From the NCBI GenBank assembly GCA_002189035.1, contig NEEC01000002.1, positions 6,409,001 through 6,473,000 of the forward strand: a DNA stretch of 64,000 nt. Direction: 5' to 3'. Source of the stretch: Utricularia gibba (Eukaryota > Streptophyta > Magnoliopsida > Lamiales > Lentibulariaceae). The position numbers and the translations under genes are program-made. The notes beneath the pieces are model-generated. The model was not told the DNA's origin. It made no database searches and was given only the letters and a program-made list of their open reading frames with translations. Below, piece by piece: positions 1,056-28,150 of the stretch; positions within the stretch are counted from its first letter, which is position 1, and every line of letters begins with the position of its first letter.

Positions 1056-3466
1056 TTATAAACTAGTAATTTCCCTGTCGAGTTTCAGCCTTTTTGTACC
1101 AGGAACTTCTGAAGCAGTGTCAACTCTTTGTTGATGAGCTAATTCATGCAGAAAAGGACAGTTAGCTCCATTCCTGCACCCCTTTGGGGTGTTGAAAAAC
1201 GTGCATGGTTTCATAATCTTGTGCTTGGTATCCCTTGGTTTCCCCATAAACATCTGCTCTTGGCCGCTTTGAGTATTGAACTGAGGTGTGGGTGTCGGCT
1301 CTCGCCTTTCTCCGCCATGTTGCTGGATGAGGCTCTTATAGTAGCTGATATCTTTTGTGACTGGAACTGCCATCGATGGAGACGTCGTGGAGTTCACTTC
1401 AGCTGGAGAATTCCATATACCTGGGATAGGCACCGGAGTAAAATAAGCTGGCCCTGCCGGAGGAATAACATCTGGTCTGATAAACTGGGCTGCAGCTGAA
1501 TTCAAAGGTGCCATGGGAATATAGTTCGAGGTTAGACCCTGCAGCCTGATTGGCTGCGCTCCAGGTGCTCTGGATGAAGTTATATGCTGTTGGTTGCTGT
1601 TGGACGTGAAGCTGGGGAAATAGGAACAGTGTGTCAAGATCTGTGTACTTGAGGCTATGCTTTTGGAGTCGGAGGAGGATCGACTGTGGCTTGCAATGCA
1701 TTGCTCTATCACTTTCCGGTCACTTAGAATCTTGATAAGCAGCTCTCGATCTATCAAATTTCCCTGATCTTTCCCTGCCATTATGGAAGTCCAGGATGCC
1801 ATAACATCTGACCCTCCACTTCCAGATTGAACATTTCCAGCAGGATTACAGCCAGGTTGTACTTCTATTGAAGTATCCTCCTCTTCGATTGGTGTGAGCG
1901 GAATCACTGGAGTTTCTTCCGTGTGATTAGAGTATTCCACCGCATCCAGTCCACAAGGGCTGCGAGAAAGGAAATCCAGTAAGATTCTTGATGGGAACAA
2001 AATGAAGAATAATTAAAGACTGCATTGCAAATTGCACTTGGGAGGAATGGCCGATGGGCGAGGATAAATAGCTTCTAACACTCCCGATTCTCGTCGATTC
2101 TGAAATTCTACTTCTGTGCTTTCTTCTCCAGCAACCAGACTCCATTCCCTATTAACTTGAAACTGCGTTGCAACAAGAGATCTCATCAAGAATGGTAAAC
2201 TCCAACATCATCATTGATATTCAGGTTCATAGACCAGATCGGCTTTGAGCATTGAGAAGCTAGAATCTCAACGTGATCAAAGTCATGTGATCCTCGCCTC
2301 CCTTCTTTTTCGGCAATTGAAGCTAGAGGAAAGAATATGAGAAAAGCTTCTACAGACAAAACACTCAGCCATCTACATAAAAATAATATATAGACACTTA
2401 CTCTAGTAGGGAGATTCCATTTAACTAGTGGTATTTGAGATAACTTCACTCCCCATGAATTCGCATGCTGGAATCCTTCAAAACCCGGAGGCTGATTCCC
2501 ATTAGAACCCAGAATTTCATGTAGTGCTGAACCTGATGCCTTTGCTTGGAGATGGTCTTGAGTTCCAAAACCTACTTCTGAAGGAGATTCCTCTAATAAA
2601 AACATCCTTACCTACAAAACTCAATGATTCAATCTCACACATGAATCCAAGTACATGACAAAAATATAAAATACCAGTAGGAGCCATAGAAGGTACGCAC
2701 CAAAAAAAAATTATACCCCACAAATATAATAAAAAAAGGCCAAAAGGTTAACCAGAGACTAAACGATTCTCCGAGGACGCATTGCTACAAGATAAGGACC
2801 ATCTTACAAAGAAACCTCTAAACATCAGGAGCCAAAGCAGCACGAGCTTAAGACATTCACCAACCTTACTCACAGTTTGCGCACAGAGGTAAGACTTATC
2901 CACATGAAACCATGGTATAAAACTAATGACATTGATGGTGTTGTACTTTTTTAATTGGCTGGTATTGCTGCATACTGTCACAGAAAATTTTATCTGTTCA
3001 ATAAGGCTTGGTGTTGGTTGATTAGATTTTTTACAACATATGATCGGATCAATCTACAATCAAATTCAATTGGGAAAAGGGATAAAAGTGTTATTGCATA
3101 CAAATGATTTAAGCTATGTCAACGCTACCTCAAAGAAACAAAAAATACAGTCAACGCATTACCAATTAACCTTTCACCTGAGGCTTCGAAAAAAGATTCG
3201 CTTTATGAATTGATTATACAAAGTTGAAAAACGTCTCTTGAACAGGCAACTCCATACGAATACTCATCGGCCGACCATATTTCGCAGCGAATCGGAACAT
3301 AGAAACATAAAAACGATTTTGGTAACCACCTTCTTTCTTATGAATCTTCATTACCAATTTTACAAATCCTCAAGAAATTCTCCAACGAAATGGCAGAAAA
3401 GATATACCTGACAGAGAGTAAAATCGGATGCCCAAGTCACCCTTTTCACTTTCTTCGATCCTCCAT
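1056..3466 (-). CDS. CCCH zinc-finger protein, AtC3H6-like (start codon out of frame by one base)
   Basis: Four exons are read on the minus strand: 3466-3408, 2611-2402, 2162-2038 and 1959-1056, all with GT-AG borders and continuous phase. The first exons carry KVKRVTWASDFTLCQ and LLEESPSEVGFGTQDHLQAK. A later block has LVKWNLPTR and SAIPPNP. The last exon ends with one CCCH finger (CTFFNTPKGCRNGANCPFLH) and a basic tail. This order matches plant C3H6-type proteins, probably nuclear RNA- or chromatin-associated regulators of unclear function. About 432 residues are expected, close to the Arabidopsis 413. The only suitable ATG (3466-3464) is one base out of frame with the first exon, and an in-frame TAA lies at 3470-3468. 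One more G in the GG at 3461-3460 would repair it. Alternatively the start lies in an unseen upstream exon. The IQD32-like gene lies upstream on the same strand. Confidence 0.82.
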
Positions 3467-4593
3467 GTTACCCATAAACTAATTCGATTCGCAACGTATA
3501 TACAACTGGATGTAAATCTTATGCATTCGATCAATCTCCGGACTCTGGGTTGTGCTGCCAGCCAAATGTCTTTGAACACGCTGTATTCTCTCGATTAAAT
3601 TTTAGCCCATTGCTTCTGAATCTGATCTACGAATTGGATATCGAGAGCACGGACGTTGCACGAAACCCTGAACAGAAACCCTAGATCCATCCACGTTTTC
3701 TCGCCATCCTCTTCAGCGTTCCGCCGCTATCTGTTGAAACTTGGGCCAGCAAACATACATACGCACAGTCGCACACGCGCGGAAAACGATTTTTTTTTTT
3801 TTTTTACTTTCCCTTTTTTAGTTGGGAAATTCAAATTTCGATATCCCCATATATGTACACCAAATATCACTATCCGCATAATCTTGGTTTTGATTTGATA
3901 CCCAATTCGTTTTATGCGATATTATCTGCTTCAAATACTTAATTCTCATGACTTTACTTTTTTTCTTATTTTAACTTGTTTTCTTAAAAGGTTATCTATT
4001 CTTATTTTATCGTAGATCATATGTAATCATTTTACTCAATATAATCATTTCTTTCATCTGTAATCAATGTAGAATTCACTTAAGACTATTCTATACTTTC
4101 ATGGGATAGGACATCACATATATAATTATTTATAAATCAGATCATCCTTATTGTGTAGATCATACATTAAAATAAAAAATTAATATCAAGAATTGTTAAT
4201 TTTTCACATATATATTAAAAATGATTGAATTTCTAAAGATTTGAAATAAATATAAGCATTTAATGGATAATTATTTTTAAAAAATGACCATCTTCATATT
4301 CTATCTCACCAAAATTTTTACATTGAGTATGATCATTTGCCACTTTTCTAAGTATCTACTTGAAAATGGTGACAAACAATGCAAAAGATAAAAAGAAGAT
4401 GAGAGAGTTCCAGTCACAAACAATGGGAGATGATCAGAAGTAAGTCAATTTACAAACACAGAGTCTTGTTCTTTTATATATGTCTGGAGACATGCAGTAG
4501 TTGTAGCTAGTTCCTGTTGTATTCAGACAAAGCAAACACAATGTGTGAATATGAAGGGGCTTCCACCTCAGTTTTCTGATGTTGGTGGCTTCA
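3467..4593. other. Leader/promoter of CCCH gene and AT-rich spacer
   Basis: The first 350 bases probably hold the CCCH gene's leader and promoter. They include a telo-box-like AAACCCTAG at 3676-3684 and a run of 16 T at 3790-3805. From about 3900 to 4560 the sequence is AT-rich with no gene I can support. The 3' UTR of the IQD gene should enter near 4590. Confidence 0.5.
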
Positions 4594-7343
4594 TCATCGC
4601 CGCCATTTCCGGTCTAGAAACAGTATTACAGAGTGAGATGTGAAAAGATTTGCTGTAGGGAAATGGCTAAGTTCAGGGTTTACCTTGAGGAGATTTAGTG
4701 CTGTTTCCTGCTGCATTCTGTTGTGTCAGTGGTAGAGTGCGCTGGATACGGGAGATTCCTGCCTCTCATTTGAACCAGGAAGAGAACGTCTCTTTTTTAT
4801 GAATGTGCCCTTTTCTTGCGCATCTGGGCTTGATCTTGGAGAGCCGTTTGCAATCAATTTCGCCTTAGCTGACTCGGTGGCCTGCATATATCCCGGTAGA
4901 GAGTTGCTGCTGCTAGTGGTGTCTCTTAGGTCCTGATCCTTATGATCATGTTTTGCTGAACCAGATGAGTTTCTAGATATTCTGGATTTGTGCTCCTGTG
5001 AATGTTCCATGCTGCTTCTAGAGGAAGAATCTTGAATGAGAGTTGAGTGTGGTGTTTGTTCATTTATCATAACCCCGACCTTGGAAGGAGACTCGGCTTT
5101 TTCCACTTCATTGGCAGCAGACACTTGGCTGGAAGGTGTTGCCTGAGATTCAGGGATGTTGGTTTGACTCATTTGGCTCCTTGGAGAATTTTCAGGTGAC
5201 GGCTTCTGGTTCTCTATCTCTGCTGAGGTGTTCTCATTCAGAAGCGAATCTGTTATAGGAGTGATAGATTCCTGTAATTCCTTGGCCTCCGGGTATGAAG
5301 GATGAAGCTCTGCTGCCTTCTCACTCGTAACATGATTGGTCTCATATGGAACTCCTGTTTCCGGTCGAATTTCAATGACTCCAAACTCAGATCCATCTGA
5401 ATCCAGTGTAGAGGAGATAGAAAGTTCAGTTCCGCACTCAGAGCCACAAATCCCAATTGCTGATGCAGAAGAAGTAACACCATCAATGAGTACTTTATCC
5501 CTCGACTTGGACTGATCATGATCAGGAGGAGAATATTGGTCACAACTGGAGAAGCTGGTTAACTTCAGAGGCGTGGCATCTGAGGTTAGATCCTCATACT
5601 TCGATTCCTTGGCAATGAAAGCAGGATTACTAGCATTTCCAGAGAACTCTTCCACTTCAGTGTTCGGTTCCTCAGCAGAGCAAATTTTTGGTTCAGCTTT
5701 TATCCCTTCACTTCCTGACTTCTCCTCGGCCGGAGATTCTGCCGCCTCAATGTCATTCAAGTCTGTTCCCTTTGTTTCCATTGGAACGGATTCTGCAATG
5801 AAGGGTCCTGAATGATGGAGCAAAGGTGCCACATGTTTCAGTGGCTTAAGATTGAAGCCGTCTGCATCATACACAATCGCATTGCTTTCATCTTCGGATC
5901 CTTCTGCTGATCCAGCAAATTCAGGTATTATCTCAATTGTCTCTGAAAGACTTCCAGGTGTAGCTACACCATCATCAATAGCATCAGAATCATCAGGTCT
6001 TTCAGCTGATTTCTCAATGGTTGCAGATCCAGATCCCTGATGCTCATCACTCACTGTTGAAGCTGACGTCCATATTTCAAGCCACTTCCAGGAGTCCGAC
6101 TTGGGTTCACATTTGATAATGATGCGTTTGGTTCTTGGCGTTGACTCCATAAGCTTAATAAAAATCCATGGACAACATCAAGGTCTATAATTAGAACTCA
6201 AAACGATGTTAAAGCCACATGTTTACCTGATTTGCAAAAGCATTGGTAAGTAGTTTGTCGATGGATACATAGGTGCATTTGCAATTTGGTTCAACTTCTT
6301 TCGTAGCCTGCAAGAAACAGGCATCCTCATGTTAGAATGCTCAGCAACAGAAGACACTTCCGAGGAAGATTCATTTTTATGATAAATGGAAAGTAGATTA
6401 AACAGCAGCCACACACTACAGTTGATCCCTTTTCTTGGCTCCTACCTTCTTTGCAGAATCATTAGAGCCATCGATAAGCAATCGAGCACGTACGCGAGCT
6501 TGGATTCTAATGATCGCTTGGACACAACAAAGTGCCCCAACAGCCTGCTTACGAACTAAGTGTCCACGCACAGCAGCTTGTAATTTGGTAACATTCTTCT
6601 CTTTCAAGAACAACCTTCGAGCCTAGCAAAAAAAAACAAAAAATTATCCTCATTTCCAGTCAAAAGAATGATTTTGGAGTTGGAAAGAACAGGAAGAAGG
6701 TTACCAGAAATCCCCTAATGAAAGCCTGGATTATGACAACACTAGCCTCATCAAAGGTACAAACTTCTTCGGAATTATCCTCAACCTCATCAAGGATGTT
6801 CGATATCTTGGATTCCTGTTCAGTAGACGTCACATTCTTTTCCTCAATCGGTTGAACGACTGGAGTCTTCTCAGTCACATCTACGCCAGCCTCAGCCTGG
6901 CAGCTCACTGACTTAACTTCATGGTTTTCGTTGTTTACGGACTGAGGCACTTCCTGGCCAAACTGATCAGTCAATACTCGATGTCGAGCTGATCTCTTCC
7001 GGAAACTCCATCCACGACGATCCGTTGAACCCTTGCTCTACGAACAGATTCCATAAAAAAATAAGACAATTCAGCTAAAAAAACATCCAAATTGAATCAT
7101 CTGCCGTAACAATTTTCAGGAATTGGATTTAAACCGTCTTAATCACAATCTAATTAGTTTCACCTCAAAACAGTGACAGATCCACTTCCAAGTAACAAAA
7201 ATATCAAATCCATAACCGCAATGCAGCTCAAAAAACGCATCAAATAAACGAGTTCATACATCAGCAGCTTGAACATCGTCATGGTCGACTGAGCGACTGC
7301 CGCATGCGAGGATCTTGAAGCACGACGGAGCAGATTTACCCAT
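4594..7343 (-). CDS. IQD32: IQ67-domain calmodulin-binding protein, IQD32-like (C-terminal frameshift)
   Basis: Six exons on the minus strand: 7343-7260, 7037-6705, 6622-6446, 6307-6227, 6153-4684 and 4613-4594. The start MGKSAPSCFKILACGS is typical of the family. The exon 2/3 junction carries the IQ67 region with three IQ motifs (IQAFIRGFLARR, LQAAVRGHLVRKQ, IQARVRARL), which bind calmodulin. Next come an LxNxFAxQLMESTP-type block and a long acidic, Ser-rich, probably disordered region. IQD proteins link Ca2+/calmodulin to microtubules and the plasma membrane. As given, exon 5 stops at 4726 (about 700 residues). Shifting the frame by one base in the GGG at 4750-4752 reads through SPRIQRTLPL and joins exon 6, which encodes DRKWRR and a stop, the expected family ending (about 721 residues). 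The CCCH gene follows downstream on the same strand, as I recall for At1g19870/At1g19860. Confidence 0.88.
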
Positions 7344-10300
7344 ACCTATTCTCATTCTCATAAATCTGGAGCAGAATTTGTACGGCTGCGCTCCCTCCGC
7401 CGGCCGCAACTTCACCACCACACTTCGCCGGTCGTTTGAAAATGGGAAGAAATGCGGGGGAATAGCAGACCTCAACCACTCAGTAGATCTCGTTCCCTTT
7501 TTCTATCTGCATCCCGGTTATTTTTCTCATCATCATTATTATTATTAATAGCCAATGGGAGCGATGATTAGCGTAGTTAAGCTAACTCCTCAGCCATTAA
7601 TTACATTTTACTAGCGTAGGTGCAGGGGACAGAATTATTTTATTTAATGGGATTATAATAAATGCACACCTAGGCGTGGGGCCCAGCGGGACAAATCTGG
7701 TTGTGATTAGGACGGCTGAGGTGATTAAGCGCCAATGATTGGTGGTAAGAACGCGTTTGATTGGTCCACGCGGCGAAATAACATTGGAGGATGGGGCACT
7801 TGAGTGGACCCCAGGGGTTTTAATGGAATACCAAATCTCACTTTTTAATCACTTTATTTGTTTTAATTACTTAGGTACTAGCTGCACCTGAACAGAAAAT
7901 TCAGGTGTTTGGGATTATAATTGTTTATTTAATTAAAAATGCATTTTTATTATGGGGTAAAAATAAAACAAATCCACAAAATTAGAAATATTTATCTCAT
8001 AATTATATGATATATTTTTTTAAAAATAACCTAATAATTAGAGCGGTTGGTAGTTAGTTGAGGACCACTGGCCAGTCATGAACATCCCCACACCCAACCA
8101 CTTTATCATCTCTTCATGTGTGTATGGGTAGTTGGACATTTTTCTGTCAAATTTTTAATTATGATAAGTGACTTTGGCACCAATGAGTACTTATCATTTA
8201 CCAAAATTGCACTACTACTCCTCACTGTTTGATGAAAATGATGATTTTAATTTCCATTGACATAATTGATCTCTATTATTTAATTGTTATCATTTTTAAT
8301 CTTTCAAATTTGACTTATTATATAAAATTACTTTTCAATATTTGTTTAATCAGATCCAAGAAGAAAAATCGATATGACTGTCATGGTTTATATGAAATCA
8401 TTAAAGAAATAAAGATCATATATTGGATGAAAAATGCGAAGACGTTGTTTTTATATGATGACGATTTCAATTGAAAAGATATATCATTGTAACGAAAAGT
8501 ATTATAAAAAAATTAAAAACATTCAAAAATCAATAATAGCATCCAATATTGATGGGATTAGTATAAAAAGTTCAATTTTTTTAAAAGAATAAATAGTATA
8601 TTTAAATAACTCATTTCATGGATTTAATGTATATTATCAATTCCAAATTTAGTTAAATAGTTTCTATTGTCATATTTAATATTCAAATTTTGACATATTG
8701 CATTTTTAATTCCCAATTTTTTGATACTACAATCATATTAAGTTTTAATTTTTTTTTATTTCAATCATTTTTTATCCCCATTATTTAAATACGAGTTAGA
8801 ATTGATTTTTAATATCTAAAAATTAGATATAATTGATCTTTATTATTTCATAATTTGATAAAATTGGTCCTCATTTTTTTGACTACCATCGATTGGAAAT
8901 AGTAAAGTAGTACAATTGAATTTAGGGAAAAAAATTAAAATTTTAAATTGGAGATCGATTTTACCATTAATTTAAATAATGAATATTATTTTTATTCTAT
9001 TTTAAAACAGTAGTAAGCTAATTATAAACGATTTTTAAAATGATGTAAATTAAAAAATTATTTTTAAGGACCAATTATACTATTTAGATAAAAAGTAAGG
9101 AATATTGTTATAAGTTTTATAATAAAAAATTAGGTTGTAGTAAAATAAAAAACAAAATGTACTATTTTAACCTAAAAATAATAATTAATCCCCTGACACG
9201 TTATCCGGCATAACCCCTTGCTGGGGCCCATGCTCGTCATTAAACCTTTTTAGAGATCCAACAAGACTGGATTAAAGTGTCGCAGCCATGTTCCATTAAG
9301 GGCTGAAAGGGGACCACAACCCCCCTTGTGCGCCCTCCACGTGTACATGCAGAAGGTTCGCCGCCGGGTCGCTGTCCGCAAATGGATTTTTTTTTGTCTT
9401 ATCATTTATTTAAATATTCAAGTCATTTTCTATGCAAGTTCTGGGCCGTAAAAATAAAAGCCCATGAACATATGAAAAGACGAGGAAAGCCCATAAAATA
9501 AATTATTGCCATAATTAAAATAATACCTTTAATATAAATGTATTTGATTTATTATAATTTATAAAATATAATTTATAAATTTATAAAATTAAAAATTAAA
9601 AATTATTTTCATCCCAAATGAATCTATTTTATTATAATAAGTTCTAAAACTATATTAATTTTCATTCTATCATAATTAAATTTTGTAAGAAAGCTTTTTG
9701 TAGCTGTTGGACATGTATATGTGACGTGGGCAGATTCCATCAGCGGGGAATTTTCAATTAGCAGTAGTTTACAGATTCGTGTTGTTGTCGCTGTGCCGCT
9801 CGGGGGATGGCCGTCTGAAAACGTTGAAGAATTGGCAGGAAGAAGGTTTGCAGCCATTACTTTATTCCACCAGATCTTAGCTTTTGTGTAATGTAGTTAA
9901 CAGTCCCTTGTTTCTGGTTGCCTTTAACTGACGCTTTAATTTTCGTATAGCAGCTCTTGATTCTGTTGAAATATTCGTGATTAGAACTGCTCTGTGCGAC
10001 CCGCCAAAATTTAGTGCTGTCTTGCGAACAAGGTGGCCTTCCCATGTTTCAATTTTAGTTTATTGAGGCGGGAAATTGGTTGTGTATTTATTTGTATCTT
10101 GTAATGGTAGATTCGAGTGGCTGGTGTGCGATTTGGAGGGAAGTTGGGGGGCTAAGCGTTGTTCTTTACCGTAGTTGGGGAGGCTGCTCAGGTTTGTTTT
10201 GCCGGGATGTTGTATTTGAGTTTCCTGCATTAGGAATATGACGAACCCTAGGTGTTGTGTTTGTATTGAATCTGATTTGGGTGTTTGAAAAGCGGTTATT

Positions 10301-10606: not shown

Positions 10607-13600
10607 TTGGAACGTTACAGCACTTTGATAATGGAGGAGGATTTTCATCAAATGCCTAAAGCTATGGAAGAAAGTGCTTCTGAGGAGGATGAGCCAATAG
10701 TCGAGCTCTTCAAGGCGCAGAACAAAAGAAAGTCTAAGAAAATTAAAGTTGTTGATGAGAGTGGTCATTGTCAGGATAAAGGTGTTAAAAATATGCTTAC
10801 CGAGGATGAAGACTTTTGTGATATGGATGACACCTTGGCAAATCTTAGGAGAAAGCTAAGAAGTTCAAAAAAGACTGGCCCATCCACTATATCTGCAAGT
10901 TTCGATGCAGAAAATAATGAAGTGATGAAATCAGAACTATCCATTGGAGGTCTGGCCAAGGTAGATATTCCTTCCAACTCATCTGACTGTAATCAGATGA
11001 CTAGGTCTGCTGGTTATGTGGATGAGTCATCTAGAGAAGCAATTTCAGGGAATTCACCCCTCATCTCCTCAGACGGCCGCATGCCCTCTTGTGCCCAGGT
11101 GCTTTCAGGTAAATTCTATCTTGTAGATATTTTTAAATTTTTTCCAAAGCCACAGGAAACCGAACAAAATTCAAAATAAAAGAAAAGAAAAAGCAAATGA
11201 GTTATTCATAAAAAAAAAAAAAAATCACTGATTGTATGCATGCCACATCTTGGTGTTATGCAAATAAATGACGTAGTGTCACCTAGAATCAAAGTAGGCC
11301 TTGGGATGTGAAAGTGGTAATCTTCTTGATGGCTCGTTCCCATTTAACTTCTCATACATGAATTACTGATTCTTTAGAATAGCAAGTTCCTGAAAAATAT
11401 CATCGTGTATTCAGAATGTGTTAACTGAACCAAAACATGTTCTGAATCTTCTTGTATTTTTCAGATGGTGTGCGTGGTACAAAATATGATCATCCATTTG
11501 AAGACGAGGACCGTGAAGAAGGCTGCCCAGATGATTCAGGGTCACCTGCTGACAATGAAACTAAAGGACGTTCACTTGGTCAGCGAGCAATGAGGGCGGT
11601 GAAAAAGCATCGTCATGGAGACATGGCTTATGATGGTGATATTGACTGGGAAGTTCTTATGCAAAGTCAAGAATTTTTTAACAGTCAAACTTCAGATAGA
11701 CAGAGAGATAAAGTACTTACATCATCTGCTGCTTCAGTTTCTGAAAATGGAAAAGCTGCGGCAGTGAAAATGGGATTAAAAGCTCGTGGAGCTGGACCCC
11801 TGGAGAAGATAAAATTTAAGGAGGTTTTGAAGCGTAAAGGTGGACTTCAAGAATATCTGGAGTGCAGGTCGGTACCTTTCTTTCTTTTGGACTACTGTCG
11901 TTTCTACCAGGGAAACGTTTAAATCTATACTTTCTAGTTTATAAACTTTCTTGTTGTAGTTCCTTTTTGGGGGTTTCAGGATCTACTTGTTATTAATGTC
12001 AAAGTTTATTTTGAAAAAAAAAAACATATTTTTTTTTTCATTGCCTGACAAAGCTTAGGTTTAGGTGTAAATCTAATGCAAATTATTACTCTAGTTTAAG
12101 CAGCTAGCATTGCAATTATCTTTTTATAGTCCGTTGCTTGCTTTTCTCTGTGTAACCCCAGCATTTAAGATTTTCAGGAACTACATTTTGAGTGTATGGA
12201 ATAAGGATGTCACTCGCATGTTGCGATTGGAAGCCTTTGGAGTGCCTCAGGCTCCTGTAATTGGTGAAGATTCTCATGCTTCTCTAATCAGAGATATCTA
12301 TACCTTTCTTGATCAGTTTGTAAGTTCATCCAATTCTATTCTTCTAGTGAACTTGTTGCACTTTTTTAGATTCCTAGTGTTGCTCCTACATAATTGAGTT
12401 CTTGAATGGGTTTTAACAGGGTTACATTAACTTTGGAATAACTACTGAAAAGACACCAACTATTGAAAACTGCATCAAGCCTGAGGATTTCCTGAGTGAG
12501 AAATCTGCAGAAGTTTCCGGCCTTTCTCCTGTCTATAAGGAGAATGGTGTTTCCTTGTGTCATACAAGAGAAAAAATATTAGAGACATACATTAGTGAAA
12601 GAAGTAGTGATGGATTGCCAGATGGAGTGTGTGAGGGCAGGCACATAGCGGATCATGTTCAAGTCAAACTTGAGTCATTGAGTTCAGTTCCCAAATGTTC
12701 ATGTGAGGGGGTACCATCTGATCAGCAGCAAGTACTTGAACCAATCCCTGCTGAAGATCTTCCTGCACTGGAGCCTGATTCACTTTCATCAACTCTGGTG
12801 TCTAATTTGGTTGAAAATCATGCCTTCAATGGTTCAGCATCTTGCCACTTACACTGTGAATCTGCTCATGAAAATGGTTTAGTACATACAAAAAACATAA
12901 TAGTAGTAGGAGCTGGTCCAGCAGGTTTAACTGCAGCACGACACCTGGAACGCCAAGGATTTTCAGTTACAGTGCTAGAGGCAAGGAGCAGAATTGGAGG
13001 TCGGGTTTATACAGATCGGACATCATTAAGTGTTCCCGTAGATCTTGGAGCTAGCATCATTACAGGCATTGAGGCAGATGTGGCTGGCGAGAGGAGGCCT
13101 GATCCATCTTCACTGTTATGTGCTCAACTTGGATTGGAGTTGACTGTCTTGAAGAGTGAATGCCCTCTATATGATACTGTTACTGGTCAAAAGGTCCCTG
13201 CAGAACTGGATGATGATTTGGAGGCAGAATATAATAGCCTACTTGATGACATGGTCATGCTAGCTGCGGAGAAAGGGGAGCATGCAGAAAAAATGTCTCT
13301 TGAAGATGGTTTGGAGTATGGTCTTAGAACACGTTGTGTATCCCAGCCCCATTATGGCAAGCCTCATGCAGAAAAGGTACAAGATGTTTCAGTCTCTTCT
13401 GAGGGGTGTTCGACTGATCAGGAAATCACGAATACACTTGGTTGTTTGCCTGTGACTATGAGCCCTCTTGAGAGGAGAGTAATGGATTGGCACTTTGCCC
13501 ACCTCGAGTACGGTTGTGCTGCTTTACTTAAAGACGTTTCTCTTCCAAATTGGAATCAAGATGATGTTTATGGGGGTTTGGTGGAGCACATTGTATGATT

Positions 13601-16600
13601 AAGGGAGGGTATAGTAAAGTTGTTGAAGCTCTTGGAGAGGGAATTCGTGTACACCTAAACCATGCTGTTGCAGAAATTTGTTATCAACCAATGGAATCTG
13701 ATAAGGACAATGGGGGACATAAAACTGTCAGAGTTTCTACATCGAATGGCAAGGAATTCTTTGGAGATGCTGTCCTGGTGACCGTTCCACTTGGATGCTT
13801 GAAGGCAGATGCCATCAAATTCTCTCCATCATTGCCTCTGTGGAAATGTCAGTCTATCAAAAGGCTTGGTTTTGGAGTCCTAAACAAAGTAGTCATAGAA
13901 TTCCCTGAAGTGTTTTGGGATGACACAATTGACTATTTTGGTGCTACTGCTGATGATACTGAGCAGCGAGGCTGGTGTTTTATGTTTTGGAATCTCAAAA
14001 AAACAGTTGGGGCTCCTGTTCTTATTGCATTAGTTGTTGGAAAAGCTGCAATAAATGGACAAGATGTCAGCTCCTCTGACCACGTAAATCATGCATTGCT
14101 GGTACTCAGGAAATTGTTTGGGGAAGACAAGGTTCCTGATCCTGTTGCATCTGTTGTGACTGACTGGGGAAGGGATCCTAATAGCTTTGGTGCTTACTCC
14201 TATGTTGCTGTGGGATCATCTGGTGAAGACTACGATATATTGGCAAGACCAGTAGAAAATTGTGTATTTTTTGCTGGCGAAGCCACATGCAAAGAGCATC
14301 CTGACACTGTTGGTGGTGCAATTATGAGCGGGCTTCGGGAAGCTGTGCGTATTATCAGTATACTAAGTAGTGGTACTGATTGCATTGCAGAAGCAGAGGC
14401 TATGGAAACTGCACGAAGAAAGTTAGATATCCAAAGGAGTGAAGTCAGGGATATTATCAACCAGCTAGATGCTGCTGAGTTCTCTAGTGACTTGTACAAC
14501 CAGTCTTTAGATGGATCGAAGGTCTCCACATGGGAATCAATGTTGAAGGATATGTTTTTTAATGCACAAACATTGGCTGGGAGGTTGTGTCTCGCGAAAG
14601 AGCTGGTTAACCTTCCTGTGGAGTTTTTGAGGACTTTCATGAGCACTAAAGATGGGCTCAGCGTTCTTAACTCCTGGATTTTGGTAACTTCGCATACTTT
14701 CCTCTTCAATTTGTAGTTCGTCTGTAGGGTATGCTGACAAGGATAACAAGGCAATTTTCATGAGCTTTGTGTCTGCTGACAGGATTCCATGGGAAAGGAT
14801 GGAACCCAGCTATTGCGCCGTTGCGTCCGTCTGCTTTTGCTTGTTTCAAATGATCTTCTTGCAGTTCGTCTATCAGGTATCATTACTCGCGTTTCTGTAC
14901 TACTTTCTAATTGGTTTCTCTTATGCTTTTGCAATTGATTATGATGATCAAAATTTCTGCACTAATTTTCTGTAATACCTTTAATGAATTTGAGTATCGC
15001 CTTTTTTGTGTTAGCATTTGGCCAAGATGTTTTATCTGCATTTTAGGAGCTAAATATGTTGTGTGGAATAAATGTTTTTTTTTTTTTTCCATTGCAATAT
15101 AGGTGTAGGAAAAACCATCAAGGAGAAAGTGTGTATGCATACTAGCCGTGACATACGCTCTATTGCGAGCCAGCTAGTTAGTGTGTGGGTGGACCTTTTC
15201 CGCAAGGAAAAGGCTAAAAGGTTGACTTCAAAGGTTGGGTCCCTTGCTGCTGCTAGGAAACCACCTACCGGCACACCCCATGCAGAGGCCAGAGGGAACA
15301 CCAGCGTTTCAGAATCTGGAAAGCCAAATTCCATTGTGGAAGAAAGTCTTCCTATGTCTGAAGAAGAAAAGGCTGCACTGGAAGCTGCAGAAGCAGCCCA
15401 TGCTGCAGCCATTGCTGCTGCCAAGGTTTGCTCTTTGATTCTTCTTCTAACATCTTCAGCATCATCACCCTCCACCTTCATGTTATGTTTTTTTTTTTTT
15501 TATTTCATAAATATCATGGATTGGCTTTGTTTGATAGATCAGAGAGTAATATTCTCACACATTTGCTCGTTCCATGGATGCCTTTGCGCATTTTCTTTTA
15601 ATTTGTCATTGAAAGTTTTAATGGCATAACACTTTGGCTCAGAAATTACTTGGAATGCTGATGTACTTGACTGTACTTCATATCTTGGTGGTGAAGTGGT
15701 TTTAAATTCTCTGTAAATTTTTGGTCTTGAACATGATCAATGTATTGGACTCAATCATGGAGTTAGTAAAGTTTCTTTTTCTCCAGTAATTATGCACTTG
15801 TGCTTTTTATTACTCTTGGAAAGTGGCCTTTTAATGTCTTCTCAACACCCTGTTGTGCTCCAAAACTGCAGGCATATGGTTTGATGCAGAAAAGATCAGT
15901 AAAGGCTCCAAAGATTCTCTCGTTCCAAAAATTTGCGATGCAGGAACAGTACCCTCATGTGGATGTACCCGGTAGTCGAAAGAACTGGCATGGTGCTCAA
16001 GAAAAGCAAGATTATGTATCTGAAATTGACTCATGGAACCGCAGAGTGAGAGATTGGGCAATTGATTTCTCAGCGACTCCTGTTGACCCAGAGAGCTCAA
16101 AAACATTGGACAGCGATCATTCTCAACGAAATGGTGTGAATGATGTTGCGGTTCAGTTGCAAATCAGAGAATACTCTGCCGAAAGTATGGCATTGGATAG
16201 CAGCATATTGACGAAGGCTTGGGTTGATAGTTCTGGCGGGATGAAAGATTACAATGCTATCGAAAGATGGCAGTGTCAGGCAGCAGCTGCTAGTTCTGGA
16301 TTCTCGCACGAGACACTGCATGGGAAACATGAGGATGATTCAAGCATGAGTTCAAAATCACATAAACAGAAAGAAGACCCTTCAACAATTGAAAGCTCTG
16401 GTTCACATGCTACAAGGAAAAAATCAAAAGGCAATCATAGCAGCGGCGCTGAAAATATAAAGCACGCAGTTGTGGATTATGTGGCTTCATTGCTCATGCC
16501 ACTTTATAAAGCAAGGAAGATCGATAGGGAAGGTTACAAATCAATAATGAAGAAAGCTGCTACCAAGGTTTTTGCCTTATATCGTCTTCTAGTTTCTTTA

Positions 16601-16947
16601 TGCTTCCTGTCTTCATAATTTTTTATTTGCTTCTGGTTCATGCTTATTTTCAGGTGGCCGAACAGGCTACCGATTCTGAAAAGGCAATGGCTGTTTCTGA
16701 TTTTCTTGATTCCAGGCGTAAAAATAAGGTTAGCATAAACTTTAAATACCTCATGCAATCATGTATATTTCAGCTAATACCTGCAGCAACTCATGCAATC
16801 CTTGGTCACTTTGATTACCTGTGTTTCTTTACTAACAATTGGAAGTTTTTTTACTGCTTTTGTCACCAGATCCGAGCATTTGTAGACATACTGATAGAAA
16901 GACATATGGCTTCAGTGTGGGGTTCCAAACCTTCAGATAAAACTTAA
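10607..16947 (+). CDS. LDL3: LSD1-type histone demethylase homologue LDL3 (one-base frameshift)
   Basis: Nine exons: 10607-11108, 11465-11867, 12178-12319, 12420-14683, 14783-14876, 15103-15425, 15872-16567, 16654-16728 and 16870-16947. All have GT-AG borders and continuous phase except one internal shift. The protein (about 1525 residues; Arabidopsis 1628) has an acidic N-terminus, a SWIRM-like segment around residues 260-350, and a flavin amine-oxidase domain. That domain starts with the dinucleotide fold [20 protein letters not shown] at about residue 509 and ends with [19 protein letters not shown] long Ala/Glu-rich helical tail follows. LDL3 homologues are nuclear FAD enzymes that remove H3K4 methylation. 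As given, exon 4 hits TGA at 13596-13598 because GGT-TT-GGTGG lacks one T at 13577-13579. With four T the [16 protein letters not shown] motif is continuous. The start could be 10607 or 10631. Confidence 0.93.
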
Positions 16948-18362
16948 TGATCCACCGTAACTCCAATACTCTGGAACCATAGCAGCTGCTAGTTGTTCAT
17001 GCCTCGCACAAAGCGTGAAAGCGGCCATATTGTTTGGTCATACCATCAGGATCACTCTGCCATGGGGTTCTCGAATTTCCAATCGGATTATTGAAAAATT
17101 TTGTTCTCCGGTTCCCAGGAATGGTGTTGCTTGTGAGAATTTGTTCTTCCTATTGGGTCTGTTAGGTAGAGTTAAGTTCAAGATCCCCAAAGCTTTCCAG
17201 ATGAGTGCTCATAGAACAGCAAGAATGACTCGATTTCCAACTTGGACCATTGTACAGATTGGATTTTCCTGTTTTTGAAACCAGCTATACATAATCATTC
17301 TTGAGCAGCAATTCTTTGAGAGTGATTCTCTTTTCCCCTGTTCCAGATAAGGAACTAAGATGTTCCTCCATGTTACATGTCCCTGAGTTCAGAGGCATTT
17401 CATTTCATCTTATTTGTTCCATTGGCTTCCAATTACAGTGAACTCCATGATTGAGGTTTGTCCAAGGAGGGCTTCAAGTTCTTTACCCAAGGTAACATGA
17501 TTCCTCTGCTTCTCCCTAAACAGGAGACATGGCAGTTACCATTTTCTCCTGATATCAGAATCAGAATCAGGCACTTAAAGAAGATGATCGATGCCCTCTG
17601 TTCACACCATCCGCCCCAGCTCTCTCATGGTATGTTTCCGGTGCTGGTATTCTCATTAGAAATGTGCGGTGGTTGCCAGACTCAAGCTTCTGTGTTATTT
17701 CTGGCAGGCTAGCACACCAACTTGCTTGGCTCTCCCGTCTTCACTACAGTACCAGGAAACCACTTGGAATCCATATGGTTCCAGTTTCTCCGGCCGCCTC
17801 CCTCGCCGGAACGCCACGCCGATCTACCAGACTAAGAACCCTAGTCATCCTTTTGATCTGACCTCCTCTTGTTGAAAAAATGGAACTTGCAACCTTCCTT
17901 TGTTTATCAGCAAAGGAATGCAGGTAGCTCAACACATTTGCACGGACTGTTTCATTTTCTTTGATTTTAGATTTTAGCATGATATTTTAATTTGTTTGAT
18001 ATTGAATATGTATGATATTAATTTATATAAAAATAAATTATTTGAAAAAAAAATAGATGAATATATCTTATAAATATTTAAATGTATTGCAGGATAGTTC
18101 GTAGGTTTATAAATATCTCTTTCCATTTCCTTAAATTATATAATTATTTTTTTATTTTAGCATTCGGTTTAGTATCAATACTACACATTTTTTGAAAAAT
18201 TCTATTCGGTCAAAATTCGGTATTTCTTCATTTTTCGATAATGGATAGTTGGATTATAAAATGGCTTTATCGTTGAGAATGAAGGCCCACCGGAGGAAGA
18301 ATTGGCGTTCAAGGAAGGAAAGTTGATGCACGGTGCTGTCTGATCTCAAATTCTATGTATAA
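16948..18362. other. LDL3 3' region and spacer
   Basis: The start should be the LDL3 3' UTR. A GC-richer patch at 17450-17875 has short open frames, but I could not join them into a phase-consistent gene nor recognise the protein. From 17930 to 18250 the DNA is AT-rich. The promoter of the glycine-rich protein gene must lie just before 18363. Confidence 0.4.
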
Positions 18363-18857
18363 ATGGAGGAGATGACCGGAAAACGTCATGCAATGGCGAC
18401 CCTGCAGACCAGACAAGCACTGAGGGTCCTCATTTTCGCGTTGCTGATCGTCCTTTCGATCTCCCGAGGAGAAAAGGCTGCAACTTTCCAACCGCAGGGC
18501 GCCCATAACGGAGCTACTGATCGTGAAGCTGTCGATGAACGAACAGTGACTGGTGGTGGGATCGGAGGATTTTCATGGGGATGGGGTGGGGGCGGCGGTG
18601 GCGGGGGTGGAGGAAGGAATGGAGGTTGGGGATGGGGGTGGGGAGGCGGCGGCGGCGGCGGGTACTCGAGGTGGGGCTGCGGCGGAAAATGGCGCCGTTT
18701 CGCCGGAAAAAGAGATCACAGACTAGGTGAATATGGTCAGTGCATGGTGCCTGGAAGATGCATGGGGATGAGACTGGACTGCCCTCTTCACTGCGGCGGC
18801 CCCTGCCTTTACGACTGCAGACACATGTGCAGAGCTCTCTGTAAAAACCATGAATAA
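18363..18857 (+). CDS. Secreted glycine-rich protein with Cys-rich C-terminus
   Basis: A single exon of 164 codons. The start may be 18363 or the in-frame ATG at 18393, which gives a cleaner signal peptide (hydrophobic core VLIFALLIVLSI ending near SRG). After a short polar spacer comes a Gly/Trp-rich block (GWGGGGGGGGGG type, about residues 66-105). The last 45 residues hold eight Cys, with motifs GRCMGMRLDCP, HCGGPC and YDCRHMC. This resembles plant glycine-rich cell-wall proteins that carry a conserved Cys-rich tail. The likely location is the apoplast or wall; the molecular role is unknown. The poly-Gly block is coded by varied GGN codons, so it is not a simple DNA repeat. Confidence 0.78.
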   Translation: MEEMTGKRHAMATLQTRQALRVLIFALLIVLSISRGEKAATFQPQGAHNGATDREAVDERTVTGGGIGGFSWGWGGGGGGGGGGRNGGWGWGWGGGGGGGYSRWGCGGKWRRFAGKRDHRLGEYGQCMVPGRCMGMRLDCPLHCGGPCLYDCRHMCRALCKNHE

Positions 18858-19548
18858 TTTTCTTCCACGAAGTTCAAATAATTTACAGTAAAATGTTTGT
18901 CTCGTCTCAGTACAGCATTAGGATCATGAAATAATTGAAGAACAATCACTTATTTTTGTTCCTTTTCTTACATTTATGTCTGTTTGGTGTGATCTAAGAC
19001 ACAGCAGCTGCTACGCCCTTGTGGTCTTGTCTCCTTTCAAATTATTTACATGGCCGGTGGTAGTTGCAGCCAGATAGGACCCAGGCTCCACACGCCACCA
19101 ACTAGGCCATGATTTTACTTTTTTACAGCAGCACTGAGAAGCAGTAACTGAAGATTATTAAGCTGATGAGAAGGAATCCTTTTTTTTTTCAAAAGAAATA
19201 GCTGTGGATGAAAGATTCCATTCGTGCAAATCTTCCAAGGAGAAGATGGAAAATGGATGAAAATGACAGAGTAACGCTTACCCAGAAGTGCATCACCTTC
19301 CAAATTTCCTGCGTGTACAAAAGCAAAAGCGAAAGCGAAAGCACTGTGCTGATGCACATTCAGCAACAACAGTTAAATGATTGATGGTGGTGAGATCTGC
19401 CGTTCTTTACGCAAGGAAAATACAGGAAGTACAAGCAAAGCTTCACCAGCCAACAGCACAACACATTCATCTCCAAGTTGAGAACCAGCCAGATACTGAA
19501 ATGCTACGCTCCCAGTTATTGAGCTTGAAGTTGAAAGTGGAGGTGGGA
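18858..19548. other. 3' regions of the glycine-rich and B-box genes
   Basis: Converging 3' UTRs of the glycine-rich protein gene (+) and the B-box gene (-). I see no further gene. A short purine-rich repeat of the AAAGCG type lies at about 19320-19343. Confidence 0.45.
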
Positions 19549-20720: not shown

Positions 20721-20741
20721 GAAGAAGAAGAAGAAGAAGAA
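20721..20741. repeat. (GAA)n microsatellite in BBX leader
   Basis: Seven GAA units on the plus strand, so TTC on the BBX sense strand, about 130 bases before its start codon. Pyrimidine-rich trinucleotide repeats are common in plant 5' leaders. Confidence 0.8.
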
Positions 20742-22718
20742 ACCTGAAAGAAAGGGAGGGGATGAATTAATTATCATTAAATGCATTTTCAAAATTAATT
20801 AATGTTTATCTGAAATTAAAACGTCTTTTTCATTACTAATCATTTAAAATAAAAATACGATAATGAAAATGAAATTAATAATTTAATTTATTTATTAGAT
20901 AAAAAGACAGCTTTTATATAATTCGGATTAATAAGATATTTAAAAAAGGAATATAAATAAACTGTTTTCATAATTAAAAAAACAATCCCGGTATCAATTT
21001 TATAATAATTTATTACGCGTCTTCGAATAATATGAGTACATTAATAATAATAATAAAATGAATAATTTAAAATTGCAATGATTTTCTGGACTTCCAGAAA
21101 ACTCTAGAGGCATGGAGAGAGAAACACATGGGCCCACAACATGCATTTCGTGTTGTCGGGCATATCTCACTAAAATTTAGGAGTGGCACTTTTTTCCAGA
21201 TAATGCATATATTCATGTATGATTATTGGACCAAAACAATATCATATCATATAATTACAATGATATAATCATCAATATAGTAAATTGTGATTTATTAGTA
21301 ATTTATTGAATATAACCTTTTCGAATATAATTTTTATTCTTTATGTATTTTAATTTTATACGTGTACTCATTTGATTTATTAGATATTAATATGATATTT
21401 ATATTGTGGTAGGAATTGGATAATAAGATGGTTTTTATTTTGATCTGAGTTTTGACTTAAGATCATTGAGTTTATATAACAAAAAATAGATTTTTTTATG
21501 ATTCGAGTAATTCTTACAATTATAAAAAAAAGTTTTAATCAAACAAAAAAATGTCAATTCAATTTGAGGGCTGATATTCATGCAAAACAATACAATATTA
21601 GAAAATTAAAATAGAATGATCAGGTGTATAGAGATTATAATAATTGATAATTAAGTAAATCTATTTTTTTAAAATATAATTTACATTTATTATGTAATTA
21701 AATTTCAATTCGCTCCACAACCCATCAGATCTCATTTAAATAATGATAGAGTTGCTAGAATACAACCAGTCCACACTGAGGATCTTCATGCCTAGCAGCC
21801 TCATTGTTCACCAAAACCCCAAAGAGGAGTTCCTTCTTCTAAGGATATGGTGACTTGTGATCTTGTGATTACCAATGACTGACTTTGTACTGCACTCAGA
21901 AAGATGATTCTGATGTAGCATTCTTTTGGTGAAATTATTATTTACATGGGTTTTTTTAAAAAATATCCAATGTCAAAATACTATGTGAAAAAAAAAAGTC
22001 TTGGTGTGTAAGAGAGAAATGTACAATAGGTATTTTTTAAAAACACCCTTATTTCCACCATCTATATATGTATAATTTTGAAAAATAACCACTATTAAAT
22101 GACTATGTTAAAAATTACGGATCTTGTATGTAATTTTTTGAGTTTAGTATGTGATGGATAAATACAGATTGTGTACTTTTATAAACTACCCATGGGGCAA
22201 ACCTCCATGCTTCATACCCTAAAAGTAGCAAACCCTTTCTGTCTCGACTTATGGGGAGGAATTTCTTGAAGTTCTCACAACCCTTTGCTCATACCCCAAT
22301 TCGTTCAGCTTTCTCCCATTCCTTGCTTGGAGCTAAGTCCAACCTTATTGTCTGAAGCTGAGAGGTTATTTACTGAATGAAAACCCTTCTAAGGTTTCTA
22401 CTGACATCTTTGAGCTTTTTCAAATGCTCTTGCATTTTCTGCAAAGACAGTTAAAAGAAAGTGAAGCATGACCCTCTTCTTGAAACCCTAAACCAGATCA
22501 GAAAAAACCATGGTTTACCATATTTATGAGTAGTATATATAGGGTAGATATTGTATATAGTAATTAGTGTATGATTTTTTATACTTAAAGTCAAGAACAT
22601 CATGTATATAAATATTAAATTATGACCAATAAGAAATACTGTTTTTTATCAATTTCTTTTATTGAATTCTTGAGATATCCACTATCCATAAGTGAATCTC
22701 TACTCATAGTTTTGTGTC

Positions 22719-22729
22719 ATCCCACATCG
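22719..22729 (+). promoter_or_regulatory. Plant snRNA upstream sequence element (USE) match
   Basis: ATCCCACATCG matches the plant snRNA promoter element RTCCCACATCG exactly. A TTATAC motif follows about 37 bases downstream, near the spacing seen in Pol II-type snRNA promoters. The expected transcript region (from about 22795) does not resemble U1, U2, U4, U5 or U6, so this may be a promoter relic or part of a repeat. Confidence 0.4.
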
Positions 22730-23694
22730 GAAGTTGAAATGAGTGAATTGACCATTCCATTGTCTTCTTATACAAAAGAAGACCACTTTAGGAATCCAGG
22801 GATCTTTCCTATATTTAGAGAGATTTATTGTACAAATAGGTCAGGCCCAATAGTTGGTAATTCATTATCTTTTACATGGGCTAAATTGGGCTGCTACACA
22901 TAATGGGCTCTTCAACCTTACCCATGCATGAAATTTTTATAGTAAAAATAATTGCAGAATTAGATTATAAAATTATTATTTTCATCACAAACTTAATATC
23001 ATTGTCAATTAATAGTAAATCTACCAAAACAATTGAACATTTATCATCAAAATTCTTAAAAAAAAAATATAATTCATAAATTATCAATAAATATAGACAC
23101 AATAAGTTGAAATTTTGTAGTTACATTAAAAAAAAATTATGACGAGTCATTTATAAAACTAATCATCCTTGTATTCTCTCTCACATATTTAAATAGAAAT
23201 TTTTTAAATAAGGGTGTTCAATTTTTTCAAACACTCAGGATTTCAACAGCACGCTGCTGCTGAACCAGAGTTTTTCAGCCATCAAGTGTTGGATTTCTGA
23301 AAGGCCCATTTTAGGGTTAGTGTTTCACGTTTCCTATTCGAACCCATTATGGAGACTACGGTCTTCATCGAATGCGCTACGGTGATAGCTTCTTGCACTG
23401 GTTTGCATCCTGTTGGTTATGCTTCAATGTTTTCGATGAATAGATGGTTACTTGAAGCGATAGGTCATCAATTCTCAATGTTCATGTCTAGGGGTAGCCG
23501 TCACTCTGAAGCCATGGATCAAGGTCAACTTAACATCTAGGATTAGATTAACATTTTAGTAAGCTAGGTGTAGTGTAGAGTTTATGATGGGTTTCTTTTG
23601 AATGGGGCGAAGGGCCTCCTCTGTTTTGCATTGACCACAGCATCAGATTGATCGAAAGCTCTGTTTTTTTGTAGCAGAAGGTGGAAGGGAATGG

Positions 23695-23721
23695 AGATGG
23701 GGATGGGGATGGGGATGGGGG
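23695..23721 (+). repeat. GATGGG hexamer repeat, G-rich
   Basis: About four GATGGG units end in a run of G. The strand has four or more G-runs with short loops, so a G-quadruplex is possible. It lies about 1 kb before the BELL start codon. Confidence 0.7.
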
Positions 23722-24707
23722 TTCAGCTTCAGTATCTGTCACCAAACTGTCGAAAGCAGGCAGATGAAGCTTAAATGAAATCAAAGACCACCAAAAAACC
23801 AACTGTATGGCTATGGCTACAGCTAGCAGGCAACGCCCATCTGGTTATTTCACTTGGCCGGAAGCGTAAAACTGGCCAATCCTTTAGGTCCACCAACTGG
23901 TGGTTATGCCATCAAGATCTCAACTCAACAGCTATTGAACCCAACGCCCTTTTTCCTTTGACCAACTTTTTTTGGTTACATATTTATCCTGCCTTGTGTT
24001 CCCAAGTGAAACTATCTACAGATCTCCTCGTAATCATGGTGCCCTCTCTGTGATGAAGTACAAAGAGGGGAAAAAAACATATGGGTATGGGCTATTAGTT
24101 CATTTCCTCCTCTTCAGAAGAATATTTTTTTCCAGTTGCTGTCACCCAATCATAGCTTGTGGGCATTGCTGTTTGATTGGGTTGTTTCCTTTGGGGTTTT
24201 CTTTTATTTAATTTCCTTCTGAGATCAATTCCCAGCTCCTCCTGTTGACGATCATCTTTTGTGCCCCGATCGTGGGGGCAGTTATTGCAAGGGGATGTTC
24301 CTGTCTTCATTCACCAGGTCACTTTTGTTCTTCTTTTTTGGTAGTTTAGAAGTCCCAACTTTTTCTCTGTGAAAAATTTCTTTCGTCTTACCAGAGGTTT
24401 CGATAAAGTTTTAGTTGTTGAAACCGGTTGGTGAATCCAATTCCTTAAAACTGACTTAAAAGCTGAAGAGGAAGGGGACCAAAGTTTCCTCCTTTTTTCT
24501 TTTTTGTTCATGTAAGTTGGGAAGATGAAGGCTTTTTCTTAGTTTCCTTAATGGGTGTCTTCGTTTTTGGTTTTTATTGTATTAGGCTGCTTGTGCTGAA
24601 CTTCTGTAAGGGTTTAGGTTGCTCGATCGCTGCAAATTTGATTGCGAACTTGTGATGATTTGTGGTTTGACTTGGTATCCTGCGCTGAGGTCTCAGGTGA
24701 AGAAGAG

Positions 24708-26595
24708 ATGCTTCCTTCAACATACTTGGTGGATCAGAAACTTGCTGCACTCGCCAACACCGAGGGATATTCGAACCAGGCATCAGATTCCCTGTTGTAT
24801 CAGAACTTGTTGGCTACTGATTCCGTTTCAGCTCAAGAATTCATTGCATCTGAAGGCGGAACCAGAGATGTGATGCTGTTTATTCCTCCTAATAATGTTC
24901 CCTCAGGGATGTTTTCTTCCAAGGAAGTGCAAGTCCATTGTTCTGAACCCATTTCGCAGCACCATGGATTGTCTCTCAGCTTGGGAACTCAAGAACCGTC
25001 TCTTCTCCACCTGCATCCAGATTCGAACCAGTTCTCGAACCCCGGCTTGTGTTCTTTTATCCATCAAGACATGCAGTTGGGGCTGCAGCACCTTCCCCGG
25101 AATGATGATATGAAGAATGTTCATTACCTGCCTTTTGGTTCCCAGAGGGGATGTCTAGACACCATGGTTGGCTCAAATACGAGCTTCGTGCCGGCTCTGA
25201 ACCAGGGACTGGCGTATACAGATGTTCTTTGCAACTCCAAGTATATCAAAGCGGCTCAAGATCTGCTCCATGAGCTGGTGAATGCTCACCAGGAGACGAT
25301 GCCACCGTCTGGGAAGCCAGAATACGGCGAAGTTGCTAAACATGGGTCACCGGAATCCAGTAACGACCTTCGTGATCTGCAGGATAAGCTGGCAAAGCTT
25401 TCCTCCATGCTGGTTGAGGTGACACTGCAGCTAACTCCTCATGCTTTCTCTTTCATGGTTGTTCAGTTAAGCAACTGAAATGTCAAGTTCCCTGATTCTC
25501 CTTTAGGTGGATAGGTGCTACAAGCTTTACTGCAACCAGCTGGGAATGTTGGCATCATCATTCGACAGCGTGGCTGGTCGTGGCGCTGTGTTTCCTTACA
25601 CTTCAGTCACACGCAAGAGGATATCACGCCAGTTCCGGAGTCTGCACGATGCAATCAAGAAGCAAATCGAAGCAGGTGAAAGGAACTTGGGGCAGAGAGA
25701 TGATGCTGCTACTCAGAGCTCAAGAACAGGAACACTGTGCCGCCTTCGCCGGGTAGATGAGCAGCTCCGCAGCCAAAAAGCCATTCAACATTTCGGTGTA
25801 ATGAGACGGCCATGGCGGCCACAAAGAGGCCTTCCTGAGACTGCAATCTCAATCCTCAGAGCCTGGCTTTTCGAGCATTTCCTTCACCCGTATGTATGCT
25901 CTTTCCAGTACTTCTCATTGGTGGATGCTCGCTTTCATATAGAACGCAATGATCACTCTGATCCATTCACAGATACCCGTCTGATTCCGAAAAACTCGTC
26001 CTTGCAACAAGAGCAGGTTTATCTCGAAGCCAGGTGAGCATCTCCTTCTCCCCTGTAACAGGTCTGAACTAATATTGCTGCGCTCATGTACATATTTTCC
26101 GGCGATCGCCCCATTTCCATAGCTTTCTCTAACATTTTTAACCATTGACGAGCTTGTTCAAGTGTATGCAGATTCCTGCTCTGCATCAAGGTGATCATGC
26201 TTTGCTTTTCGTTGCATCAGGTAGCGAACTGGTTTATAAACGCCCGTGTTCGACTTTGGAAGCCGATGATCGAGGACATATACAGGGAGGAATTCGGCGA
26301 TGAGGGTGGTCCACCGGAATCCCCACCCAAAAACGCAGAACGAAATCAAGAAACGCCATGCCTGGACAACAGGGAGGAGGGTGTGATCCCCGGAGCTGTG
26401 GCACTAATGGACTCCAAAACCGTACTAAAAAGAAGCTCTGTTTCTCTTGATCTAGGCCTGCAGAACAATCAGAAAGACTCATCCATGACCGGAGCTACTC
26501 CAGAAGCAAACCATACTCCTGCTTGGATTCGATTCTCCGAGCACGACGACATGGGTTGCGGTGAGACGGAGCTTGGTAGACCCTTGGATCAGTGA
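24708..26595 (+). CDS. BEL1-like TALE homeodomain transcription factor (BLH3/BLH10 type)
   Basis: Four exons: 24708-25418, 25507-25889, 25973-26033 and 26221-26595, giving about 509 residues. The N-terminus has MLFIPP and the zipper-like motif [13 protein letters not shown] box ([16 protein letters not shown], about residue 176) and a BELL helix region ([20 protein letters not shown] onward) follow. The three-residue-loop homeodomain is split over exons 2-4, with [21 protein letters not shown] and [19 protein letters not shown] proteins heterodimerise with KNOX proteins in the nucleus and control meristem and organ patterning. [14 protein letters not shown] and EEFGDE point to the BLH1/3/10 branch. 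The recognition helix reads QVANWF where most family members have QVSNWF. An in-frame upstream ATG at 24642 would add 22 residues. Confidence 0.9.
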
Positions 26596-27665
26596 TCTCC
26601 GTGTAGAAGATGTACAATAGGGAATCAACATTGGGTTCTTGTGGATAGTTCAGTAGCATTCTGTATACAAAATGGAACCTCAGCACCTTACTGCACATTT
26701 GTCTGAACTGCTGGAGTGGGGGTGACGCGTTTCTTCAGAATTGACCAATGAAATTGAGCCACGTAGATTCCGGGTAGCCAATACTGGGCCGACACAGCGC
26801 GCGGAACCTAAAAAGCCCACGAAAGTGGGCCGGCAGCAGAGTTTTTTATGAATTAATATAACAAAATTAAATTGTTTTGTTTTTTTTGCTTATTTTGATT
26901 ATAATAGCCATTTTTATAAATTTTCAGATTTTGATATGATTATTTTTTAATTATGGTAAAATTTAAACTAATAAATTTATGATTAATATTCCTATTTTAC
27001 GAAATAATTACGTCTATTTAGTAAACGTGATTTTTAATATGTGTATAATTTATAAAAGACTTATATAAATTCTTCAATTATATTTTTCAAAATTATTATC
27101 TCACATAGCTTTTCTTAATAAAATGAGTTTTAATTATTATTTATTTCATTTATTCTAAATACATCTATTAAACACATATTTGTAAAATATATCAACCAAA
27201 TGCACTTTTAACCAGTGTTTTAAAATCGGGTTTAACTCATTCTCCTATTTACTAATAGTTTGGAATTGAACCTTATATACGATAAATTAAATTTATAAAA
27301 ATCTTACGGAAAATAAAAATAATTATTTAAATTTAATATTTTGTGTAGAAATTATTGATTCGATCTAAAAAATCATGGAATTTAAAATACTAATTCCAAA
27401 CTTAATTAGATAATACGTATTTATCTAAATATAAATAATACCAGGTAAAAATTGGAACTAAAAGCACACCATTGCATAAATGACAAAGCTACGGTAAAAA
27501 CAAAGCTCTCCGACGGGAAAGAAAACGACAACGTTTATTATTTTAATATTTATGATGATATTATTTCATCATTTATTAAGGAATAAGTCGGCTGGAAAAG
27601 ACGAGATTCCGTGGTGGTATGCAGCAGGGAATCATCTCTCGAATCCTAATTCCTGCGTCTTGTTC
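26596..27665. other. Spacer between convergent BELL and bZIP genes
   Basis: 3' UTRs at both ends with AT-rich DNA between. A small cluster of TGGGCC/AGCCCA-type motifs lies at about 26785-26835. No gene is supported. Confidence 0.4.
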
Positions 27666-28150
27666 TCAATAATTGAACATCATTTCCGCGGTCGCCATGA
27701 TCGGAAAGTGTTGGCCGCCGCCGGGTGCGTTTGGGTTCCACATCCCTCCGCTGGGGAAGAACCCTTCGGAGAGACCCATGTGAAACTCCTCTGATTCGGA
27801 AGTGCACGCGCCGCCGTAGTGGTGCGGATTGTTGCTGACGGAGTTCAGGACTCCGTTGAGGTAGTTTAGACTCTGTGTCAGCTCCGTCATCTGCGCGCGT
27901 AGAACCGAATTCGCGGATTCCATCCGGGCATAGCTTTCCATCATCAAACCCACGCTCCTCAGCATCTGCGCGTTCTCCTTCCGCAGTTCGGCCCCTCCGC
28001 TGTCAGATCATCGAGATGCTTCTGCTTCCGCAGCCTGGATCGCCGTGCCGATTCCCGATTCGACTCCATCCGCTTCCTCTTCCGCTGATCCACCAAATCC
28101 CCATCCGACCCAGCACCAGAAACCGACGAAATCCCAGCAGAGGACGCCAT
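27666..28150 (-). CDS. S1-group bZIP transcription factor, bZIP11/bZIP44-like (one-base frameshift)
   Basis: Intronless, as is usual for S1 bZIPs. The start ATG is at 28150-28148, followed by the basic region QRKRKRMESNRESARRSRLR and a leucine zipper that includes MESANSVLRAQMTELTQ. The protein ends in MATAEMMFNY. Expected length is 161 residues (bZIP11 159). As given, the frame breaks after DDLTAE: the run of four C at 27992-27995 (GGGG on the sense strand) needs a fifth base to continue as GAELRKENAQ, which keeps exact zipper spacing with bZIP11. Without it the protein ends 15 residues later, before most of the zipper. S1 bZIPs dimerise with group C bZIPs and control sugar and amino-acid starvation genes. 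The SC-uORF in the leader predicts translational repression by sucrose. Confidence 0.9.

Follow-up and report, generated by a model that had tools for sequence, protein, structure and literature searches.

One-base losses breaking four genes in a Utricularia gibba genome window: very probably consensus errors of a long-read assembly

The genome of Utricularia gibba was assembled solely from PacBio reads by HGAP with Quiver, at 88x coverage, which gave 581 contigs with an N50 of 3.4 Mb (PMC5793159). In assemblies built only from long reads, errors in homopolymer length are the commonest residue, according to PMC8812927, and in a study of nanopore data false deletions exceeded insertions and were most frequent following runs of four to five (PMC12007338). 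The papers searched, which were those other than the assembly paper (Lan et al. 2017), gave no report of frameshift errors in the U. gibba assembly.

The window analysed here, a stretch of 64 000 nucleotides (C451:6409001–6473000), lies away from the end of a 6.82 Mb contig and was compared with the genome as a whole (100.09 Mb in 516 contigs; one contig, C1, is listed at exactly 8,500,000 bases, a length that suggests truncation and not a natural end). Positions 1–51 kb of the window have an inverted, collinear partner at C304:1631–1696 kb, with 65–90 % identity, and three of the four genes considered here, encoding a CCCH zinc-finger protein, an IQD32-like protein and a bZIP, could therefore be compared with a homeolog on C304. 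The fourth, LDL3-like, gene was judged against LSD1 structures. When the window sequence was read against these relatives, each of the four genes was found to contain a single frame change of exactly one base. The breaks were located where the first-pass annotation had placed them, with homeologs or LSD1 matches keeping both halves of each gene in frame, and no second lesion (stops or larger indels) was detected in the window copies that were compared with homeologs.

The CCCH zinc-finger gene has lost one base in its first exon, just 3′ of the ATG (3460–3466, minus strand; break at 3460–3463). The window copy reads ATG GAG GAT CGA AGA AAG TGA, and its frame stops after MGNMEDRRK unless it is slipped by one, whereas the homeolog is in frame as ATG GAA GGA TCG AAG AAG GTG and has MEGSKKVKRVTWASD in its ATG frame. 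Because the homeolog has GAA GGA at this point, the missing base would as likely be an A as a G. The loss in the IQD32-like gene is near the C-terminus, in the region matching DUF4005 (4748–4754, minus strand). At about 4750 the window frame passes from RQESP into VSSALYH and a stop, and the reading resumes in the next frame as SRIQRTLPLTQQNAAGNSTKSPQG; the homeolog, in frame here, reads RHGSPRIQRSLSQAQETAKGSNTKSPQG, with SPRIQRSL running across the position of the break. The homeolog has CCT where the window copy has CC-, so that T would be as likely as C to be the missing base. The C304 copy of this gene carries a separate one-base loss of its own, at the place equivalent to window position 5159. 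The dN/dS of the IQD tail was 0.84, over only 21 codons, which is too short to judge selection.

In the exon of the LDL3-like amine oxidase gene the loss is within GGGGGTTT (13572–13579, plus strand), between frames that match LSD1 and the Pfam Amino_oxidase domain one base apart. The upstream frame matches human LSD1 as far as DDVYG, and the downstream frame, offset by one base, begins with GFGGAH and matches LSD1 from there onward. To judge by the sequence, the G5 run at 13572–13576 (GGGGG) would fit as the site of the loss as well as the TTT at 13577–13579. A DNA search of the genome revealed no second copy of the gene. The block containing it (window 11000–19500) has no counterpart in the homeologous stretch of C304, and this part was therefore lost from the partner after duplication.

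The S1-type bZIP gene is broken in its leucine zipper (27990–27997, minus strand). At about 27992 the window copy reads KHLDDLTAE and then GPNC, with AELRKENAQM in the next frame, placing the slip after LTAE. The codon concerned is kept in the homeolog (L017) and in two paralogs (L018 and L020). The homeolog has GAG GCG GCA and carries AEAAELRKENAQM, after a different one-base loss of its own 25 bp upstream; in the paralogs this codon is GTG. As relatives carry GCG or GTG here, the CCCC/GGGG run need not be where the base was lost: what is missing was probably a C or a T outside the G run, and the run itself may be a product of the loss and not its source. Beyond the losses of both copies, dN/dS was 0.27 over 107 codons, and these codons are under selection. 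An intact upstream ORF of 39 codons (MPQSLIELACMVTDSSLRRGTHLVHSFSVVFLYWFYVIS; 28255–28374, minus strand) encodes the same peptide that is found in the leaders of the homeolog (L017) and of one paralog (L018); it resembles the sucrose-control peptide found in leaders of S1 bZIP genes, and its preservation is a sign that the gene is kept. There is a slight chance that a minority of the one-base losses are real, for example in this bZIP, whose two homeologs each carry a break at a different point and share the preserved upstream ORF. If so, a sucrose-control leader peptide would have been left without its main protein.

The first-pass annotation had ascribed the losses mostly to particular short runs, and the breaks do lie at those runs, but the assignment to a run or to a base was insecure in the bZIP, IQD, CCCH and LDL3 genes alike. 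The longest run near the break was 2, 3, 5 and 4 at the four sites, which on their own show no clear bias to long runs.

The whole genome was scanned for gene families without introns or with long exons, and wherever neighbouring matches lay in different frames the sequence was inspected by eye; searches with Cpn60/TCP1 and cellulose synthase were too intron-rich and were left out of the counts. Among HSP70 genes, five one-base losses were found in conserved coding sequence, on C451, C496, C255 (two) and C1. The broken GRAS genes that were read contained 13 one-base losses (on C244, C375, C142, C2, C1, C480, C255, C328, C213 and C412) and one insertion (on C414), with about 25 further domains whole, so that insertions, of which none had been seen in the first-pass annotation, are rare and not absent. 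The C304 copies of the IQD and bZIP genes added two one-base losses, at positions differing from those in the window. All the lesions in HSP70 genes, PRP8 and the window were losses. One-base losses thus occurred on at least 10 other contigs and elsewhere on C451, at a density similar to that over the first 32 kb of the window; the rate was roughly one per 3–5 kb of sampled coding sequence, a figure based on estimated coding lengths. The density was uneven, three tRNA synthetase genes of 1109–1281 codons being intact.

Several candidate lesions had other explanations. A seemingly conserved frameshift at model position 135–140 or so in six GRAS paralogs resolved into separate losses in five and, in the sixth, what looks like an intron, the split region consisting of C/G-rich codons around GGPP, and an apparent +1 offset in the GRAS gene on C244 was really two losses about 25 nt apart. 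In the window, the seeming shift in the homeolog of an auxilin-like gene at 40.5 kb was an intron, and a TLP gene at 47–48.6 kb was intact, with introns. An HSP70 copy lying beside an intact relative had the same frame break at two loci, L034 (C241:10001–20000) and L035 (C304:2234001–2242500), on contigs that differ by 16 mismatches. It is probably a real pseudogene, and this shared lesion, possibly being real, was left out of the error counts.

PRP8 was found at one locus in the genome, where its frame break lies near C412:508,320. The frame ahead of TTTGCCCCAGACCATTC matches residues 270–408 of human PRP8, and a frame one base off matches residues 409–1146 (E = 0); the frame slips at the boundary of the codons for human residues 408 and 409, where an intron would not fit. 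PRP8 is a core spliceosome protein, and a plant without it is not viable. A like lesion in a single-locus gene that the plant needs therefore favours error over mutation. This bears directly on the possibility that the window breaks are real, recent frameshifts in redundant regulators that are being lost after whole-genome duplication. In its favour, a homeolog exists for three of the four genes, which would make one copy dispensable; both copies of the bZIP and IQD genes are broken, and the HSP70 lesion that C304 and C241 share may be genuine, being the clearest candidate among the few broken genes in the sample that may be true pseudogenes. Apart from PRP8, however, no second copy of the LDL3-like gene turned up when the DNA was searched, the lesions were nearly all single-base losses without adjacent stops or larger indels, and selection continues past the bZIP break (dN/dS 0.27). 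The mixture of lesions expected of pseudogenes was absent from the compared window copies, and the bZIP showed no relaxation of selection. Real mutation is thus very unlikely to account for the four breaks.

A defect restricted to a poorly polished piece of this contig, as the first-pass annotation had proposed, is less likely again. All four breaks fall before 32 kb, and the stretch from 32 to 64 kb showed no coding one-base gap relative to the homeolog or, beyond about 51 kb, where open frames were the only guide, by inspection of those frames. The loss-free half therefore stands as an observation, but the local reading drawn from it does not: the 4-to-0 split has a P of about 0.10 (on rough estimates of about 13 and 10 kb of coding sequence in the two halves) and is compatible with chance, and a local polishing defect was rejected because similar losses, at similar density, were present on many other contigs and elsewhere on C451.

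Redundant small contigs in the assembly allowed two assembled copies of one locus to be compared. One such contig, C316 (38 kb), aligned over 14.2 kb with C412:846–860 kb, with 12 mismatches and 25 gaps, 20 of which were of one base. Seventeen of these 20 were homopolymers shorter by one and the other three were a lone A dropped between T runs, the latter resembling the bZIP and IQD cases; the losses were carried by C316 in 17 of the 20. Between two alleles, substitutions are expected to outnumber one-base gaps. Here, one-base gaps outnumbered mismatches, and the comparison therefore decides for error, although C316 may be poorly covered and the error rate there thus exaggerated. The same gaps tell against the notion that the breaks are bridged in the living plant, whether by RNA editing, by unusual splicing or by programmed frameshifting, which fits the conserved frames on either side of each break but is extremely improbable, as the genes are unrelated and without a common signal, the homeologs are uninterrupted at the same points and there is no room for an intron.

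Across 24 pooled coding losses, the mean length of the longest run within 14 nt was 3.96 (2.61 expected), and 33 % of the losses had a run of five or more nearby (2.5 % expected), a bias that likewise decides for error; the loss junctions were placed by hand to within a few bases, and the size of the enrichment is approximate. The lesions as a whole are single-base and mostly losses, are concentrated at homopolymers and affect a gene that must be intact (PRP8). Some of the losses, including those in the bZIP and CCCH genes, are not in long runs, which is evidence against the error reading, as is the uneven density of losses. The earlier suggestion of systematic homopolymer undercalling, and not decay, can accordingly be kept as one-base undercalling by the assembly, but not as undercalling at homopolymers only.

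Taken together, the analysis indicates that the four breaks are, with little doubt, consensus errors of the assembly and not mutations of the plant, a status assigned to these sites by analogy with the genome-wide pattern. The consensus would drop single bases across the genome, mainly by shortening short runs of like bases by one and less often by omitting a lone base between like runs, and the four genes would be ordinary targets of this process. Its cause may lie in the polishing history, the assembly most likely having been both built and polished (HGAP, Quiver) from PacBio long reads alone. The feature is an assembly artefact from which nothing can be learned of the four regulators' biology, and these genes should not be reported as lost. 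At about one false loss per 3–5 kb of sampled coding DNA, a large proportion of long genes would appear in annotations as broken or split, and claims of gene loss or pseudogenes made from the assembly of U. gibba, a plant frequently held up as a case of genome reduction, should be checked with accurate reads.

Of the two kinds of known system with which these breaks can be compared, the pseudogenisation of duplicates after whole-genome duplication is similar in that a duplicated block has broken frames in one copy or in both. It differs in that real decay brings mixed lesions and relaxed selection, neither of which was seen here, and in that here a single-locus essential gene is also affected. 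The homopolymer errors of long-read-only assemblies described in PMC8812927 and PMC12007338 concern bacterial genomes and, in the latter, mostly nanopore data, whereas here the assembly is that of a plant and is ascribed to PacBio reads with HGAP/Quiver; in a further difference, a minority of the losses here merge two runs across a lone base. The U. gibba losses are like them in consisting of one-base false deletions that far outnumber insertions, in being concentrated at short homopolymers and in breaking reading frames.
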